Of a stretch of 64,000 nt of DNA, positions 4,611-37,275 are shown piece after piece. The position numbers and the translations under genes are program-made. Numbering within the stretch: position 1 is the stretch's first letter; each line of letters opens with the position of its first letter. Origin of the DNA: Candidatus Loosdrechtia aerotolerans (GTDB lineage: Bacteria > Planctomycetota > Brocadiia > Brocadiales > Brocadiaceae); assembly GCA_021646405.1 (NCBI GenBank), contig SOER01000001.1, positions 1 through 64,000 on the forward strand, written 5' to 3'. Under the pieces are notes generated by a model. The model had not been told where the DNA came from and searched no databases. It was given only the letters and a program-made list of their open reading frames with translations.

Positions 4611-6536
4611 ATGACTACATTCCCAAATCTTTTTCGTCCTTTTAAAATCGGTTCCTTAACGATAAAGAACCGCATGGTAATGTCACCTATGGAAACCCAT
4701 CTCTGCGATAAAGAGGGTTTTGTTACGGAGGAGATTATTGCCTATTATAAAGAACGTGCCCTTGGCGGAGTTGGTTATATCACCATAGAGAACACCACTG
4801 TAGAACCCGCCGGCAGGGTGAACGACGGTATGTTGTGTATACATGATGATAAATTTATCCCGGGGTTAAAAAAACTCACAGATAGTATACATTCGGCAGG
4901 CGGAAAACTTGTATTGCAATTAAGTCATGCGGGGAGAGAGGCACTTCCCTATTTTACAGGCCTGGAACCGGTAGCCCCCTCCCCTATTCCAAGCCCTTTA
5001 ACCAAACACGTACCAAAAGAACTAACCATCGACCAGATCGAATCCATTGTCCGGAAATTTGCTGAGGGAGCAGAGCGTGCTGTGAAGGCCGGATTTGATG
5101 GTGTTGAGATCCACATGGCACACGGTTACCTCGTAAATCAGTTCTTTTCTCCTGAATCCAACACACGAATAGATATGTATGGCGGGGATACCGTTCGCCG
5201 TTCCCGTTTTGCCAGGGAAATTGTTGAGAGTATCAGAAGGCAAGTACCCGGGGATTACCCGATAATCTGCCGCATTAGCGCAGATGAATACACTGAAACA
5301 GGGTTAAAACTGGAAGAGAGTAAAGAGATTGCCAGAATATTAGAACAGGCAGGCGCCAGCGCCATCCATGTTTCTGCATGCAATTATGCATCTGCCTTTT
5401 ACAACATACCGTGTTATTACCTGGAGGAAGGATGCTTCGTACATTTAGCTGAAGGCATTAAACCCGTTGTTCAAATACCGGTATTAACGGTAGGCAGGAT
5501 CGTAAATCCTGCTATGGCTGAAAATATACTGAAAGAAAACAAAGCTGATCTTATTGTATTAGGCCGTGTACTCATTGCAGACCCTCACTTTCCCAACAAG
5601 GTAAAAGAGGGCCGGATTGAAGATATAAGAACCTGTTTAAGCTGCAACCGATGTATAGAGAGCATTTCCGATAAAAAGCTTGTGTGTACCGTTAACCCAT
5701 CAATTGGAAAAGAGGGTGCTTCTTATGGAGAAAAAACAACCCAACCAAAAAGAATATTAATTGTTGGCGGCGGGCCTGCAGGATTATCGGCAGCTCATCT
5801 TTTATCCGCCCGCGGACATACTGTTACCCTGTGGGAAAAGGAATCGCAACTCGGAGGAAGTCTTCGCTACGCCTCCATGGCACCCGGAAAAGAACCGGTA
5901 AGGAAGTTTATCGATTATTTAATCCATCAGGTTAAGAAAGCAAACATCTCAATTTTGCTGGAAAAAGAAGCAACTGAGGCATCCGTCAAACAGTTTGCAG
6001 CCGATGTCGTTATTCTTGCCCATGGTGCCCATAATGTTCCGGTAGAAATTGACGGAATAAAGGGTAATGGTGTGCTCCATGTGAAAAAGGCATTCGCAAC
6101 TGTTCATTCGCTGGGAAAAAACATAGCAATCGTTGGAGGAGGACCCGAGGGGTGTGAACTTGCAGACTTCCTTGCATCTCAGGGTAAGAAGGTTACCCTT
6201 ATTGAAATGAGGCGTGTTCTCGGGTTGGAACTCGTTGCACATCCCCGTTACCACGTTTGTGAACGTCTAAAAAAACTCGGCGCCCATTTACATGTTAATA
6301 CAAAAGTAACCGAGGTTGGCCACGACTATATAATCATTCGTCGCCGAAGAGAGGCAGATCAAAAACTTGATGGGTTTGACAATATCGTTACCCCTATACT
6401 CCACCAACCAAACCCTGCACTTGCAACGCCTCTTCAAGCCCTTGCCCCGGAGGTCTACACTATAGGTGATGCATTAGGAGGCCGTACAGCACTTGAGGCT
6501 ATTACAGAAGGTACAGAAATTGGAATGAAGATCTAA
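4611..6536 (+). CDS. NADH:flavin oxidoreductase / 2,4-dienoyl-CoA reductase-like Fe-S flavoenzyme
   Basis: Three-part flavoenzyme of the FadH/old-yellow-enzyme group (641 residues). Residues about 1-330 form an FMN-binding TIM barrel (KNRMVMSPMETHL, HAGREAL, GVEIHMAHGYLVNQFFSP, LGRVLIADPHF). Then comes a cluster motif CLSCNRC followed by VCTVNP, which in this family binds a 4Fe-4S cluster. The last third holds two dinucleotide-binding loops, ILIVGGGPAGLSAAHLL (FAD) and IAIVGGGPEGCELADFL (NAD(P)H). Family members reduce enoyl-CoA double bonds, aldehydes or related substrates using NAD(P)H; the substrate cannot be read from the sequence. AGGAGG lies 14 bases upstream of the ATG and AAGGAA three bases upstream, so start spacing is unusual either way. 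First gene of a four-gene operon; the next ATG follows its stop without a gap. Confidence 0.88.
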   Translation: MTTFPNLFRPFKIGSLTIKNRMVMSPMETHLCDKEGFVTEEIIAYYKERALGGVGYITIENTTVEPAGRVNDGMLCIHDDKFIPGLKKLTDSIHSAGGKLVLQLSHAGREALPYFTGLEPVAPSPIPSPLTKHVPKELTIDQIESIVRKFAEGAERAVKAGFDGVEIHMAHGYLVNQFFSPESNTRIDMYGGDTVRRSRFAREIVESIRRQVPGDYPIICRISADEYTETGLKLEESKEIARILEQAGASAIHVSACNYASAFYNIPCYYLEEGCFVHLAEGIKPVVQIPVLTVGRIVNPAMAENILKENKADLIVLGRVLIADPHFPNKVKEGRIEDIRTCLSCNRCIESISDKKLVCTVNPSIGKEGASYGEKTTQPKRILIVGGGPAGLSAAHLLSARGHTVTLWEKESQLGGSLRYASMAPGKEPVRKFIDYLIHQVKKANISILLEKEATEASVKQFAADVVILAHGAHNVPVEIDGIKGNGVLHVKKAFATVHSLGKNIAIVGGGPEGCELADFLASQGKKVTLIEMRRVLGLELVAHPRYHVCERLKKLGAHLHVNTKVTEVGHDYIIIRRRREADQKLDGFDNIVTPILHQPNPALATPLQALAPEVYTIGDALGGRTALEAITEGTEIGMKI

Positions 6537-7877
6537 ATGAGGAACCAATCGAAGAGGAGAACAATTGTAATAGGTTTAGATGGCACGCCTTACAGCCTTC
6601 TTTGTAAACTCACAGAGCAGGGTGCCTGTCCAAATCTATCCAGATTGTTATCCACAGGCTCATTGCATGAAATGAAATCTTCACACCCTGCTGTTTCTTC
6701 TGTCGCATGGACATCCTTTATGACGGGAACAAACCCGGCAAAACATGGTATTTTTGGCTTTGTTGACAGGTATCCCAATACGTACGATATATATTACCCC
6801 AATTCCAAACACATCATGAGCAGGACCATCTGGGACATCCTCCGTGACTATAATAAACGGTCCATCGTAATTAATGTACCTTCAACATATCCGGCATCAG
6901 AAATGAATGGCATATTAATTGCGGGATTTGTGGCTATAGATCTTGTTCGTGCAACATTTCCGGCTTCGGTTGCTCCTCTGCTCAAAGAAATGGATTACAA
7001 AATCGATGTCAGTACAGAACTTATCCATGAATCGAAGGATCGGTTACTTGAGGATTTGTTTTTAACACTGGAAAAGAGGGTGCATACAATCCTTCATTTT
7101 CTGAAACATGAGACATTCAATCTTTTTATTGGAGTACTTACAGAGACTGACAGGTTGCATCATTTTTTCTGGGAATCTCACGAAGAAAGTGATGAAAAAT
7201 ATCACCGCTTCTTCCTGGATTATTATAGAATAATCGATGTTTTCCTTGGTAAAGTCATGGAATATGTGGATGATCACACCACACTCATCATTTTATCCGA
7301 TCATGGATTTTGCACATTAAAACATGAGGTATATATTAATCACTGGTTACGGGAAGAGGGATACTTGCATTTCAGAACAATACCACCGAAATCTTTACAC
7401 GCCTTAGGAGAAGGATCAAGGGCTTACTGTCTGGACCCGGGGAGAATTTATCTTAATCTGAGAGGCCGTGAACGTGCCGGGTATGTAGCACCTGGCGACG
7501 AATATGAACACCTGAGAAATATGCTTATATCAAAACTCACAAAAATAAAAGACCCTGTTACAGACACAACGATTATTGATAAGGTATATAAGCGGGAGGA
7601 AATTTACCACGGAAGGTATTTTGACAGGGCACCTGATATCATTATTGAACCGAAACACGGTTATGATTTAAAAGGTGCTCTATATCACAGTACCCTGTTA
7701 GATAAAGGCATCTTTACTGGTATGCATACCTATGATAATGCCTTTGTCTATATTAACCATACAGCTGTTACCAAACACCCTCTGGAAATTGTTGACGTAG
7801 CTGCAACTATTCTGGCATCATTAGACATCCCGGTACCAAACGAATTTGACGGTACCAATTTTATACAATGGAATTAA
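6537..7877 (+). CDS. Alkaline-phosphatase-superfamily phosphodiesterase/nucleotide pyrophosphatase-like hydrolase
   Basis: The 446-residue protein belongs to the type I phosphodiesterase/nucleotide-pyrophosphatase branch of the alkaline phosphatase superfamily. Seen in order: VIGLDGTPYSLL near the amino end (first metal aspartate), HPAVSSVAWTSFMTGTNPAK with the expected Ser/Thr nucleophile, and LIILSDHGFC carrying the metal-binding Asp-His pair, followed by RAPDIIIEP. There is no signal peptide, so it is probably cytosolic. Such proteins cleave phosphodiesters or phosphonates; the substrate is unknown here. The ATG abuts the upstream stop, and the gene overlaps the next by 10 bases, indicating translational coupling. 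Confidence 0.82.
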   Translation: MRNQSKRRTIVIGLDGTPYSLLCKLTEQGACPNLSRLLSTGSLHEMKSSHPAVSSVAWTSFMTGTNPAKHGIFGFVDRYPNTYDIYYPNSKHIMSRTIWDILRDYNKRSIVINVPSTYPASEMNGILIAGFVAIDLVRATFPASVAPLLKEMDYKIDVSTELIHESKDRLLEDLFLTLEKRVHTILHFLKHETFNLFIGVLTETDRLHHFFWESHEESDEKYHRFFLDYYRIIDVFLGKVMEYVDDHTTLIILSDHGFCTLKHEVYINHWLREEGYLHFRTIPPKSLHALGEGSRAYCLDPGRIYLNLRGRERAGYVAPGDEYEHLRNMLISKLTKIKDPVTDTTIIDKVYKREEIYHGRYFDRAPDIIIEPKHGYDLKGALYHSTLLDKGIFTGMHTYDNAFVYINHTAVTKHPLEIVDVAATILASLDIPVPNEFDGTNFIQWN

Positions 7878-31115: not shown

Positions 31116-31808
31116 TTATTTTGGTAGGATATGACTCCTTGCATTTTTTGCCTCGAGGATCACCTGTTCATATCGGCGGCATAATTCCTCGACAGCCCAG
31201 CCGCCGGCACTTTTTAAACGCTGACGAACCGCTGGCTGAGAAATGCCAAGTTCCCTGGCAATCTTTTCCTGGGTTGAACCTCTCATCTGACCAATTATTG
31301 CCTGGGCCTGCTCGGCCGACCATCTGCTTATCAGGGCATCGAGCAGAGCACATTCTACATCAAACTCTGCATTTATATCCTGCCATGAAGTCCGGATGAG
31401 TAGCTTTTGATCTCCTTTCATTCTGTCAAGTGTTGGTCCGGAAAAACGAAACGCTTCACCATCTCCCTCTGATCCTCGTCCAGCGGGAAGGAAATCGACT
31501 GATCCAATACCTACGGCAATACGCGCATCCAATGCATACCGGCGTTGTTTCATCTTTAAACCGTATCGTAAACTTGCGCGAATAACAAGAGATGCACGGA
31601 GAGCAGCCTCTGGTTTGGATAATACCCCCTGAAAACTGTCACCCCGATATATTTCAAAGGGTGCATATACTACCCCTGGCAGGATGTCACCAATTGTCTT
31701 AAATGACGATTTAAGTACCGTTAATAAATATCTACGCTGATTAGCCTTTAATCTTGAAGACGCAACTATATCCCCGGTTATAACCGCATAAAGATTAGGG
31801 TTCTTCAT
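31116..31808 (-). CDS. SatD-family protein with carboxy-terminal helix-turn-helix
   Basis: The 230-residue protein starts NLYAVITGDIVASSRL, the SatD signature, followed by a domain that resembles a nucleotide-cyclase fold (FEIYRGDSFQGVLSKPEAAL, DARIAVGIGSVDFL, GEAFRFSGPTLD). The carboxy end is a DNA-binding region: GSTQEKIARELGISQPAVRQ then RLKSAGG, a sigma-like or LuxR-like helix-turn-helix. It is therefore a candidate regulator of the operon it heads (DUF3307, ydbH, ynbE, ydbL). A palindromic AT-rich site lies about 110-165 bases upstream. Ribosome-binding site weak (AAAGATAGAG). Confidence 0.82.
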   Translation of the reverse strand: MKNPNLYAVITGDIVASSRLKANQRRYLLTVLKSSFKTIGDILPGVVYAPFEIYRGDSFQGVLSKPEAALRASLVIRASLRYGLKMKQRRYALDARIAVGIGSVDFLPAGRGSEGDGEAFRFSGPTLDRMKGDQKLLIRTSWQDINAEFDVECALLDALISRWSAEQAQAIIGQMRGSTQEKIARELGISQPAVRQRLKSAGGWAVEELCRRYEQVILEAKNARSHILPK

Positions 31809-31971: not shown

Positions 31972-32231
31972 TTAGGAACCGAGGCCAATATGTTTTACAC
32001 TCATATTGATTCGTATGCGACTTAATTTTGTTGTTAAACGTATTTCTTATAACTGTAAGAAGTGTACCACAGGAAATAAAAAAAGTCATTGGAAAATTAT
32101 AGAGGATTGGCCAAAAATTCATTTCAGTCATGAATAAATATTATCGTGATAAAATCTTGAAAACCAGGACCTTTATTAGATAATAGAGATTAGACTTCGT
32201 ATTATCCATCCGGCAATAAACAAATTCAGGA

Positions 32232-32612
32232 CTCGATCCAGGTGAAGGGGTAAGGGCTGAAGCCGGAGCCATGATGTTTATGGAAGATGCCATCGATAGC
32301 AGACATCTACCGAAGGAGGTATATTTCGAGGTTTTAAAAGAATGCTCACAGGAGAGAGTTTTTTTATAACCACTTTCCTTAGATTATGACATCCAATTTA
32401 TTGGAGGCTTTAGGAATGCGCTTTTTGGTGGTGAGGGAATATTTCTTGCGAGATTAACCGGGCCAGGAATTGTATACTTACAGAGTTTACCATTTTCACG
32501 ACTCGCAGACCGTATCCTTGCGGCAGCAACATACCAAAGTAAAGGTGAAAACAGAGGAATCATGGGATTAGGAAATAGCCTGTTGGGAGGGTTCTTACAA
32601 GGAGACCGATAA
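32232..32612 (+). pseudogene. AIM24-family (TIGR00266) protein remnant with internal deletions
   Basis: Pieces of one protein of the AIM24/TIGR00266 family are readable in order but in changing frames: LDPGEGVRAEAGAMMFMEDA (from 32232), FKRMLTGESFFITTF (about 32333-32378), then LDYDIQFIGGFRNALFGGEG, IFLARLTGPGIVYLQSLPFS and RLADRI to a stop at 32610-32612. Intact members have about 230-260 residues; about half is missing, with gaps after MEDAI and after ITTF. The carboxy end (GNSLLGGFLQGD) is intact. No start codon or ribosome-binding site can be assigned. Family function is poorly known. Confidence 0.75.
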
Positions 32613-32686
32613 ACGCTTATACGTTCACGGTTGATTTATCTTTTCCGGTTTTTTTCTGGGAATATCAAAATTTTTTTATCACGTGA

Positions 32687-34234
32687 TTAAATACCATTTC
32701 CAGTCCTCGTTTCCTCGATAAACTCCTCGGTAGCATCATCAACGGCACGCCCCTGGCGGCCTCTGGTTTCGTGTATATAGAGGTTTTTATAATATACCTG
32801 TGTGTTTTTTCGTATTGGGGGCGAGGTCATCTCATATTTGACAGGCTGGTAATGGTCGGAAAGGCGAAGGACAGGATTATAAATATCTTTAAACTTCCAG
32901 AGCATTTTAATAAAATTTGTTTGTCCGTGAAGCAAATGGCCCAGTACGCTTTTTCCTGCGGAACAGATTCCCGCCCAGCCCAGATGTTTTTTGTTTAAAA
33001 TCTCCTGAGTTTTTACCAATTCATTATAGAATTCGGGAAGTGGCAATTTCGTGGGTAACACCGCATGTTGAATATCGAAAAGGCGATAATCACGCGTCTG
33101 AAGCCTTCGCAACTCCGTCTGCCATGTTTCAGTTCCCGGGTAGGGGGTATTTACACTGATATTGACAATTTCAGGAATCTCCCGACACCATCGCCGAACA
33201 ACCTGAAAACGGTCCCGGTCCCAATCAGGGTCAACAATTAAGTTGATGGCAACGGTAATTCCAATGGAACGGGCAAATTCCAGGGCCTCGAAATTTCTAT
33301 TCAGGCTAACACGCTTACGATATCTCTTGAGTCCCTCCTCATCAATAGCCTCCAGTCCCAGAAATATGTATTTAAGTCCGAGCTCTTTCCAGAAGGTAAA
33401 TACATCCTTATTCCGAAGCAATACATCACCCCGTGTTTCCAAATAGTAACACTTCCTGATTCCCTTTCGGGCAACGGCCTCTCCGATTCTGTAACCATGC
33501 TGAGCCTGAATAAAGGCTACATCATCTACAATAAAAACACCGGATTCCTGTATTTGCATTAGATCCTCTACAGCCTTCTCCGGACTTACCACACGATAGC
33601 TGCGACCGTAAAACGTCCAGGCACTGCAGAATGCACAATCCCACGGACAACCCCGGCTGAACTCAATTGATGCGCAGGGATCCAGAGTCCCGATAAAATA
33701 TTTCCGACGGTAACGAAGGAGATTACGTGCAGGCTGGAGATCGTCCAGGTTTTTTACGAAAACCGGAGGTAGTCCTTTGTCTTCCTGTGTCACAACACCA
33801 GGAACCTTTGATAGAGCCTTTCGGTCCTCCCGAACAGCCGCTAAAAGCTGAACGACAGATGCTTCTCCTTCTCCTATAAGGACACAATCAAGGGCCCCAT
33901 GAGCGTGCCGGAGAAATTCCTGTGCAGTAAAAGAGGCACTATGCCCTCCAACAAAAATAAAACTATGAGGAAGTTGTTTTCTTGTATAGAAAGCGAGATC
34001 GATAATCTCCGGTACATTTGGTAAATAATTACAGGAAAAAGCTATCACATCGGGTTTCCATTGATGAATAATACTACAATAATCACCATACGTCTCCACT
34101 TGCAGATCAATTAATTGAACGCTGTGTCCGGCATAACGAACCGCTTGAGCTACAAGCTCAAGTCCCAGAGGTTCCAGACGCAGGAAAATTTTCGAATACA
34201 TAAGTGCACTTGGATGAACAGCAAGAAATTTCAT
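32687..34234 (-). CDS. hpnR: Hopanoid C-3 methylase (B12-binding radical SAM)
   Basis: Adds a methyl group at C-3 of hopanoids using SAM, a 4Fe-4S cluster and cobalamin. The 515-residue protein has the amino-terminal cobalamin-type domain (AVHPSALMYSKIFLRLEPLG, VFSCNY-like AFSCNYLPNVPEI, FVGGHSASFTAQEFL), the radical SAM motif FSRGCPWDCAFCSAW (Cys196, Cys200, Cys203) and family-specific stretches YYLETRGDVLLRNKDVFTFW, VNISVNTPYPGTETW and DYRLFDIQHAVLPTKLPLPE, which I recognise from HpnR of methanotrophs. The tail RGRQGRAVDDATEEFIEETR is also conserved there. The rest of the hopanoid pathway (shc, hpn genes) is not in the window. Co-directional with, and 15 bases after, a small cyclophilin-like gene. 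Confidence 0.88.
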   Translation of the reverse strand: MKFLAVHPSALMYSKIFLRLEPLGLELVAQAVRYAGHSVQLIDLQVETYGDYCSIIHQWKPDVIAFSCNYLPNVPEIIDLAFYTRKQLPHSFIFVGGHSASFTAQEFLRHAHGALDCVLIGEGEASVVQLLAAVREDRKALSKVPGVVTQEDKGLPPVFVKNLDDLQPARNLLRYRRKYFIGTLDPCASIEFSRGCPWDCAFCSAWTFYGRSYRVVSPEKAVEDLMQIQESGVFIVDDVAFIQAQHGYRIGEAVARKGIRKCYYLETRGDVLLRNKDVFTFWKELGLKYIFLGLEAIDEEGLKRYRKRVSLNRNFEALEFARSIGITVAINLIVDPDWDRDRFQVVRRWCREIPEIVNISVNTPYPGTETWQTELRRLQTRDYRLFDIQHAVLPTKLPLPEFYNELVKTQEILNKKHLGWAGICSAGKSVLGHLLHGQTNFIKMLWKFKDIYNPVLRLSDHYQPVKYEMTSPPIRKNTQVYYKNLYIHETRGRQGRAVDDATEEFIEETRTGNGI

Positions 34235-34249
34235 AGAACCTTTCCCTTT

Positions 34250-34615
34250 TTAATGTACACGAATCTTTGAACCTTCTTGAATTGTCTTTAAAAGAGATGG
34301 ATTATCAATAATGTGACCAAAAATATTAACCGGGCTATACGCTCGTGGTTTATTTCCCGTACTCACCGGGGTAGGGCCAAAAAAAATGCAGAATGCGGGA
34401 CCTATTGGCCAATACCCTAAAGCACCAACTTCAACATCTGTTTTTGCATTAGTTTCCAAATTCATTTTTAACGGAATTTCAAAATAAATCTCTTCACCCC
34501 ATACATGGACAATTCCTTCAAGGGGTAAAACGGTAAGTATCTGCCGGGCTGTAGGTGTATCATAAAGCTCGGCAGAAACAGATATCTTATCAAAAGAAAT
34601 AGTAATTGTTTTCAT
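34250..34615 (-). CDS. Cyclophilin-like (TM1367-type) small protein
   Basis: The 121-residue protein has the pattern of the cyclophilin-like DUF369/TM1367 fold: KISVSAELYDTPTARQILTV, VHVWGEEIYFEIPL, VGALGYWPIGPAFCIFFGPT, and AYSPVNIFGHI. Despite the fold, prolyl isomerase activity is not established for this group. The ATG at 34615 follows AAGGAG by about 12 bases; a TTG 36 bases upstream in frame has no family support. It immediately precedes hpnR, and the same operon is likely. Confidence 0.8.
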   Translation of the reverse strand: MKTITISFDKISVSAELYDTPTARQILTVLPLEGIVHVWGEEIYFEIPLKMNLETNAKTDVEVGALGYWPIGPAFCIFFGPTPVSTGNKPRAYSPVNIFGHIIDNPSLLKTIQEGSKIRVH

Positions 34616-34836: not shown

Positions 34837-37275
34837 TTATTCAGAAGTATGTTTATGCGTTAACATATCACTAGAAAACACTTTTGACCTTCTGAGGGTT
34901 TCTTCAAAAGAATCCAATTTTTTACTCACCTTTTCATTAAAGGTGTTGGGAGGAAAAGTACCATCCTCCTGCCTTTCGCCTGCCACCATCCCGGTTAACA
35001 GTTCAATCCCTTCGTCTATCGTATCGATCGTCCAAATAGTAAATTTCTTCGATATAACAGCTTCTGCGACATCCTTACGTAATATCAAATTCCGTACATT
35101 GCTTCTGGGTATGATAACGCCCTGGTTTCCCGTCAGTCCTTTCACCCTGCATACATCGTAATATCCTTCAATCTTATAATTGATTCCACCAACAGCCTGA
35201 ACTTGCCCTACTTGATTTACGGAACCAGTGACAGCAATTCCCTGCTTAATTGGTACCTCTGCCAGCACAGACAGCAGGGAGTACAGCTCAGCAGCAGAAG
35301 CGCTATCTCCTTCAACGCCTTCATAACTCTGTTCAAAGACGAGTCTCGCGGTTAGCGTTGTGGGTTTTCCTTGCATATATTTATTTACCAGGTAACCGCT
35401 TACGATCAACACGCCTTTACTGTAAATAGGCCCTGCCAGTTTAACTTCCCGCTCAATATCAATAATACCACTATGTCCGGGTTCCACAGTGGCTGTTATC
35501 CGGTTTGGTTTGCCAAACTGATAATCGCCCAGGTTAATTACCGAAAGACCGTTCACCTGCCCAACCTTTTCCCCAGCAGTATCAATCAAAATAAGTCCAC
35601 GGTCTATCATCTCCCGAATTCGCTCCTCAATAAGATTCGACCGATATATCTTCTCATCTAAGGTCTTCCGGATATGTCTTGATCTGATCAGTGGTTCTCC
35701 ATCCTCCATTGACCAGAAGTTCGCCTCTCGCAGAATATCTGCCAGGTGGCCAAACTTGGTCGAAAGCTTTTCTTTATCTTCTGCCAGCCGGCTGGCATAT
35801 TCCATAACATCTGCAGTAGCTGCATTATCAAGGTGTCGTATTTTTTCTTTACTGCAAAATGTTGAGATAAATGACATGAAATTATTCATATTCTCTCTTG
35901 TTGTATCCATACGGGTATCAAAGTCTGCCTTCACTTTGAAAAGCTCTGCAAACTCATGATCAAGAAAATACAGCAGCCGATAAAATATGGGCTGGCCTAC
36001 CAACACAACTTTTACATCGATTGGAATAGGCTGTGGACGAAGCGTTTTTGTCGTCATAAAGCCTAACCGTTCCCCGAGTTCCTCTATCTGCACATCACAA
36101 CTGTAAAGTGCACGTTTGAGTGCCTCCCAGCTCTGGAAGTTTCGCAAGACATCTTCTATGGAAATAATGAGGAAACCACCATTTGCACGAAGGAGAGAAC
36201 CCGCTTTAATCTGAGTAAAATCCGTAGTTAAGGCACCCATAATTACTTCCTTTTCTATTCGGCCAACAAGATTATGATATGTTGGATTCAGTTCCAGAAT
36301 AACCGGTCCACCTTTCTGTTTACTGTTATCAATAAGTACATTGACCTGATATTTTCTTAGTGTCGTTTCCTGCATTACTTGTAATTGGACATTAGCAAAA
36401 GGGGAAGGGGCAGCACCCTTTTGCTGAAGGACTTTAAACATATCGATATTTCTCAGTATATCATCCTGGACATCATGGAGAAACTTTTTAATTTCAGGAG
36501 ATTGATCATATTTTTCTATCAGGTCGTCCATTAATTCCCCGACTACATGAAGCGCAACTTTCTGGTCTAACTCCTTAACACTTTCCCTTGCCCGGTGTTC
36601 CAGTTTGCGCATATTTTTCATAACACCTTTCAATTCATTTTGTAACCTGCTCTGCTTTTCCTGTATCTCTTTCCGAACAGATTCAGGCAACGACTGAAAC
36701 TCCTCATCACTAAGCGGTCTTCCGTTCTTAAGGGGAATAATCATGATTCCTATCGGTGTCGGCTGAATAACAAAACCTTCTTCGGATGCCTTTTGATTAA
36801 TCTCCTCGGAAATAGCATCTCTCCGTTTTGTTAATTCATTTACAATTTCCTCACGACGGGCAGTGTATTCATCACTCTCAAATACCTTTGGCAGGTCTTT
36901 TTGAACATGGTCGAAAAGAGCGTTCATATCCTCCCGAAATTCACAACCTTTTCCAGCAGGCAGTTTAATAGCCCTGGGATTATATGAATCTTCAAAATTA
37001 TTCACATAACACCAATCTGGCGGCACCGTTTTTTCCTTCGCCATATCTTCCACAAAGGATTTTACCGAAGCTATCTTGCCAACACCCGGCGGACCTGCAA
37101 CAAAGATATTGAAACCTATACCTTTGACTTTCAGACCAAATTGTAATGCATTTACAGCTCGCTTTTGTCCGATGATTCCCTTTAAATGTTCAAGCTCAGA
37201 GGTATCTTCAATCCCAAGGTCCTCCGGATCAAATTTTCTTCTTAACTCATCGGTATGCACCTCATAATTCATCAT
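34837..37275 (-). CDS. Lon-family ATP-dependent protease (LonB-like / COG1067 group)
   Basis: The 812-residue protein has an amino AAA part with IIGQKRAVNALQFGLKVKG and the P-loop VAGPPGVGKIAS (about residues 59-70), a long helical insertion (about 140-270), a second AAA segment (GALTTDFTQIKAGSLLRANG, GFLIISIEDVLRNFQSWEALKR in two pieces), and a carboxy-terminal Lon protease domain with the serine in EGDSASAAELYSLLS and the lysine in GGINYKIEGYYDVCR. The P-loop ends in GKI, where most ATPases have GKT or GKS. Proteases of this group degrade misfolded proteins in the cytosol. The ATG (first of ATGATG, 37275) follows CGGAGG by five bases. Separate promoter upstream. Confidence 0.88.
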   Translation of the reverse strand: MMNYEVHTDELRRKFDPEDLGIEDTSELEHLKGIIGQKRAVNALQFGLKVKGIGFNIFVAGPPGVGKIASVKSFVEDMAKEKTVPPDWCYVNNFEDSYNPRAIKLPAGKGCEFREDMNALFDHVQKDLPKVFESDEYTARREEIVNELTKRRDAISEEINQKASEEGFVIQPTPIGIMIIPLKNGRPLSDEEFQSLPESVRKEIQEKQSRLQNELKGVMKNMRKLEHRARESVKELDQKVALHVVGELMDDLIEKYDQSPEIKKFLHDVQDDILRNIDMFKVLQQKGAAPSPFANVQLQVMQETTLRKYQVNVLIDNSKQKGGPVILELNPTYHNLVGRIEKEVIMGALTTDFTQIKAGSLLRANGGFLIISIEDVLRNFQSWEALKRALYSCDVQIEELGERLGFMTTKTLRPQPIPIDVKVVLVGQPIFYRLLYFLDHEFAELFKVKADFDTRMDTTRENMNNFMSFISTFCSKEKIRHLDNAATADVMEYASRLAEDKEKLSTKFGHLADILREANFWSMEDGEPLIRSRHIRKTLDEKIYRSNLIEERIREMIDRGLILIDTAGEKVGQVNGLSVINLGDYQFGKPNRITATVEPGHSGIIDIEREVKLAGPIYSKGVLIVSGYLVNKYMQGKPTTLTARLVFEQSYEGVEGDSASAAELYSLLSVLAEVPIKQGIAVTGSVNQVGQVQAVGGINYKIEGYYDVCRVKGLTGNQGVIIPRSNVRNLILRKDVAEAVISKKFTIWTIDTIDEGIELLTGMVAGERQEDGTFPPNTFNEKVSKKLDSFEETLRRSKVFSSDMLTHKHTSE

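Follow-up and report, generated by a model that had tools for sequence, protein, structure and literature searches.

A putative hopanoid C-3 methylase in an anammox genus and its probable horizontal origin

3-Methylhopanes found in rocks are usually interpreted as signs of methanotrophy, i.e., of methane-eating bacteria, and of oxygen. The reaction catalyzed by the HpnR family needs SAM and cobalamin, and it does not need O2. HpnR has been reported to methylate hopanoids at C-3 in Methylococcus (Welander and Summons 2012, as cited in PMC5462960), and a wide distribution of the gene has already been described (PMC5462960). In Rhodopila, 3-methylhopanoids have been detected in anoxic culture (PMC8590665), and Methylomirabilis oxyfera makes 3-Me-BHP-hexol according to Kool et al. 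2014, as cited in PMC5516240. Precedents therefore exist both for an anaerobic source, in Rhodopila, and for a source in nitrite-reducing settings, in Methylomirabilis (PMC5516240). The preliminary description of the locus studied here had suggested that an apparently anaerobic organism could be another source of these lipids. Such a source is indeed possible, but the idea of an anaerobic producer is not new, as Rhodopila preceded it (PMC8590665). What is new is the occurrence of hpnR in an obligately anaerobic host of the nitrogen cycle, an anammox bacterium, that is neither methanotrophic nor phototrophic. No paper linking hpnR or 3-methylhopanoids to anammox bacteria as carriers or producers was found in the literature searched, which excluded most subscription journals.

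In this study, we analyzed a stretch of 64,000 nucleotides (the window) from Candidatus Loosdrechtia aerotolerans. The contig on which it lies is 294 kb long and belongs to a genome of 3.26 Mb (G000) with an estimated completeness of 99.4%. The same genome encodes hydrazine synthase alpha (PF18582 on contig C14, E 3.5e-28), which is absent in 14 control genomes. Therefore, the host, a member of the order Brocadiales, family Brocadiaceae, is an anammox bacterium, in agreement with the apparently anaerobic character originally attributed to it. Its genus comprises two species, with genomes of 3.26 and 3.46 Mb, and the genome of the second (G033) is a single contig.

The hpnR gene lies at 32687..34234 on the (-) strand of the window and encodes a protein of 515 aa with a B12-binding domain (PF02310) and a radical SAM domain (PF04055). 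In a profile search, the HpnR model TIGR04367 matched this open reading frame with 865.8 bits against a cut-off of 650, over model positions 1-489 of 490, while the second-ranking model, BchE, reached 168 bits. With its CxxxCxxC motif in the form CPWDCAFC, the protein is the full-length HpnR that had been recognized from the letters. It retains 107 of 109 invariant residues, defined from 33 other HpnRs, and the protein of the congener retains 105 of them. Among solved structures, only remote B12/radical SAM relatives were retrieved (best E 1.6e-9). BchE, or another B12 radical SAM identity, was considered and is ruled out by the gap between the model scores and by the HpnR tree discussed below. 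The predicted activity of the enzyme is most likely hopanoid C-3 methylation, as in Methylococcus.

Other genes of the hopanoid pathway can also be recognized in the window genome. Squalene-hopene cyclase (SHC) is present (TIGR01507, 781.7 bits against a cut-off of 431.1), as is HpnH (432.5 bits, cut-off 225.05), together with an HpnG-like phosphorylase whose score of 108.7 bits is under the cut-off of 187.1. The three genes are close together on the 294-kb contig, so that the cyclase gene whose presence elsewhere in the genome the preliminary description had proposed to check does exist, and in company. They are also found together in G033, where much of the surrounding gene order is kept, and the proteins of this region are about 69-87% identical between the two genomes. 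Across the order, 58 of the 62 genomes encode SHC. The source of squalene is less apparent. PF00494 covers SQS, HpnC, and HpnD, but no PF00494 squalene/presqualene synthase was detected in the window genome or its family, and only one of the 62 Brocadiales genomes has a match over the cut-off; squalene supply by SQS or HpnCDE, the pathway context for HpnR, was accordingly not found in the window genome. HpnE passed its cut-off in none of the 33 family genomes, a weak negative given that the model passed in no control either. Most family genomes have one or two polyprenyl synthases (PF00348), and next to SHC in 12 relatives no squalene synthase was seen, the only recurring genes being hpnH, hpnG, and apparent housekeeping genes. 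Thus, the Brocadiales have the cyclase and almost lack a recognizable squalene synthase. As anammox bacteria are known hopanoid producers, including of a BHT isomer (PMC5516240), their squalene synthase must escape the models used.

This gap bears on an alternative reading, namely that an intact HpnR has a different polycyclic lipid as its substrate or stays silent, and that 3-methylhopanoids are not made. Some cultured bacteria with hpnR lack the product (PMC12583986), which, along with the missing squalene synthase in this genome and family, gives the alternative some weight. However, SHC and HpnH are present, the match to HpnR is at the equivalog level with the invariant residues retained, and the gene is under strong purifying selection (see below), and we therefore regard this outcome as unlikely, if well worth keeping in mind.

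The distribution of hpnR is narrow. Only two of the 62 Brocadiales genomes, both from the genus of the window, encode an HpnR over the cut-off, and these two are among 11 such genomes in 392 sampled across the phylum. In the HpnR tree, the two anammox proteins are sisters at 100/100, and the pair falls inside a set, also at 100/100, of proteobacterial, Nitrospirota, Rokubacteria, and Chloroflexota sequences plus one other planctomycete. A single clade of all planctomycete HpnRs was rejected by the AU test (p-AU 2.65e-54). By tree path, the sequences nearest to the anammox HpnRs, after each other, are those of Rokubacteria and then of Methylococcaceae. The tree does not resolve the fork beside the anammox pair and thus points to no single donor. 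The window protein has its place among the HpnRs rather than in a different B12 radical SAM family; with this position and with SHC in the genome, neither of the two outcomes that the preliminary description had set against its own reading, a genome without the cyclase and a place beside a different radical SAM methylase, was found. A B12 radical SAM protein from the same family of bacteria (G025:C126:276-1595, L038), 33% identical to HpnR and with 261.9 bits under the cut-off of the HpnR model, lies far outside the HpnR set in the tree. The alphaproteobacterial genome Centralia_MAG_3 carries two tandem hpnR-like copies (L024 6001-9210), the second of which is possibly frameshifted near residue 400.

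Because hpnR is confined to two of 62 genomes, the two proteins form a 100/100 clade, and a common planctomycete origin is rejected, the data support a horizontal gain of the gene by the ancestor of the genus. The composition of hpnR is host-like (GC3 z = 0.66), and its substitution pattern (pN 0.155 versus pS 0.747, with dS saturated) fits a gene kept under strong purifying selection; taken together, these properties fit an old gain. The lack of synteny between the two hpnR loci, which share no flanking genes over the compared stretches, would also allow that the genus received the gene twice from one donor lineage. Nevertheless, the two HpnRs form one fully supported clade and are 73.8% identical, a divergence close to that of the vertically inherited neighbors in the SHC region, and rearrangement after one old insertion is the simpler explanation. 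A double gain is thus rather improbable, and we favor a single acquisition by the genus ancestor.

The surroundings of hpnR look like a patch of variable genes. Upstream of hpnR and its neighbor, a LonB-like AAA protease gene (34837..37275, (-) strand; PF13654, PF20436, and Lon_C) has relatives in only four of the 33 family genomes at E <= 1e-50, i.e., the window genome and three of genus g6, with 72-73% identity. No synteny beyond lonB was seen in the three relatives compared, and a comparison with an empty site gave no date for the insertion of hpnR. On the downstream flank, a SatD-like protein is encoded at 31116..31808 on the (-) strand (PF16264, 31.1 bits against a gathering score of 29). 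Convergent with hpnR, at approximately 32150..32640 on the (+) strand, is a broken remnant of an AIM24-family gene, in which a stop separates two PF01987 fragments in the frame shown (E 3.6e-8, and E 2.7e-4, the latter under the gathering score); it sits in a stretch of 880 bases that contains no intact gene. At the congener's locus (L068 in G033), an IS1380-family transposase, at 5950-7467, is located about 3 kb from hpnR, with one gene (DUF748/AsmA) between them.

Directly upstream of hpnR, at 34250..34615 on the (-) strand, is a cyclophilin-like gene of the TM1367 type, which shares the PF04126 domain with this family of proteins (E 1e-39). Its likely start is the ATG at 34615, which agrees with the coordinates in the preliminary description and is preceded by GGAG, and a longer open reading frame opens at TTG 34651. 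Between the end of its stop codon at 34250 and the ATG of hpnR at 34234 lie 15 bases; the gap and the TM1367-type assignment noted at the outset are both confirmed. Neither the hpnR match nor this neighbor is due to chance. The suggestion that the small gene is a partner of hpnR fared less well. As a functional pair, e.g., with the cyclophilin-like protein presenting the lipid to HpnR or helping it to fold, the two genes would have in their favor the same strand, the short gap, and a probable single transcript. However, none of the other 32 family genomes, G033 among them, contains the cyclophilin-like gene, and a phmmer search for relatives of its product beside 36 other HpnR loci found none in the available flanks. 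These flanks ranged in length between about 1.5 and 6 kb and were in some cases shortened on one side by a contig end. Its GC3 of 0.254 (z -4.0 relative to the neighboring genes) is foreign, on a measure that is noisier for a short gene, and neither the family genomes nor the HpnR flanks revealed a connection of PF04126 TM1367-type proteins to hopanoid metabolism. The idea of a functional pair is therefore largely refuted and very improbable. Most likely, the cyclophilin-like gene is a recent and unrelated arrival that perhaps shares a transcript with hpnR.

Contamination of the metagenome assembly, which the rarity of hpnR in the order might suggest, can be rejected with near certainty, since hpnR and an anammox-type SHC gene are on one contig of 294 kb, hpnR matches its host in GC3, and a related copy exists in G033, whose single contig makes a binning error unlikely there.

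On the basis of these results, we consider it probable that hpnR was gained horizontally from outside Planctomycetota, was retained by selection, and encodes an enzyme for C-3 methylation without O2, in which the cyclophilin-like gene has no part. The ancestor of the genus would have acquired the gene, to which the nearest sequences are those of Rokubacteria and gammaproteobacterial methanotrophs, and selection would have retained it since then, while the loci of the two species would have diverged by rearrangement or, less likely, through a second gain. In the cell, SHC would make hopanoids, HpnH and the HpnG-like phosphorylase would extend them, and HpnR, as a cobalamin-binding radical SAM methylase, would methylate the hopanoid A ring at C-3, giving 3-methyl-bacteriohopanepolyols in the absence of O2. 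We infer the expression, activity, product, and membrane role of this HpnR from sequence, and hpnR-bearing strains are sometimes without 3-methylhopanoids (PMC12583986). A more tentative proposal, which we find somewhat doubtful as a whole, is that the genus makes 3-methyl-bacteriohopanepolyols from squalene supplied by a synthase other than SQS, HpnC, or HpnD, and that 3-methylhopanes preserved as fossils can be a record of nitrogen loss under anoxic conditions. Anammox bacteria may thus be an overlooked source of 3-methylhopanoids. If so, this source would tie 3-methylhopanes also to anoxic nitrogen cycling, in organisms whose physiology is far from that of methanotrophs and purple phototrophs.

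The window HpnR belongs to the same family as the HpnRs of the Methylococcaceae (Methylolobus and Methylotetracoccus), with which it is colinear over its full length and 68-69% identical. In contrast to those methanotrophs, the window host, an anammox planctomycete, does not oxidize methane, and the Methylococcaceae hpnR loci lack the cyclophilin-like neighbor. Rhodopila globiformis and strain LVNP likewise combine 3-methylhopanoid genetics with the ability to grow without O2 (PMC8590665). However, Rhodopila, a phototrophic alphaproteobacterium, is also capable of aerobic growth and has an Acetobacteraceae-type HpnR, whereas the anammox HpnR forms a separate clade in a tree from which the Rhodopila protein was left out. 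Methylomirabilis, a reported source of 3-methyl-BHPs such as are predicted for the window host, reduces nitrite and inhabits anoxic settings, but it is an intra-aerobic methanotroph, whereas anammox bacteria do not oxidize methane.
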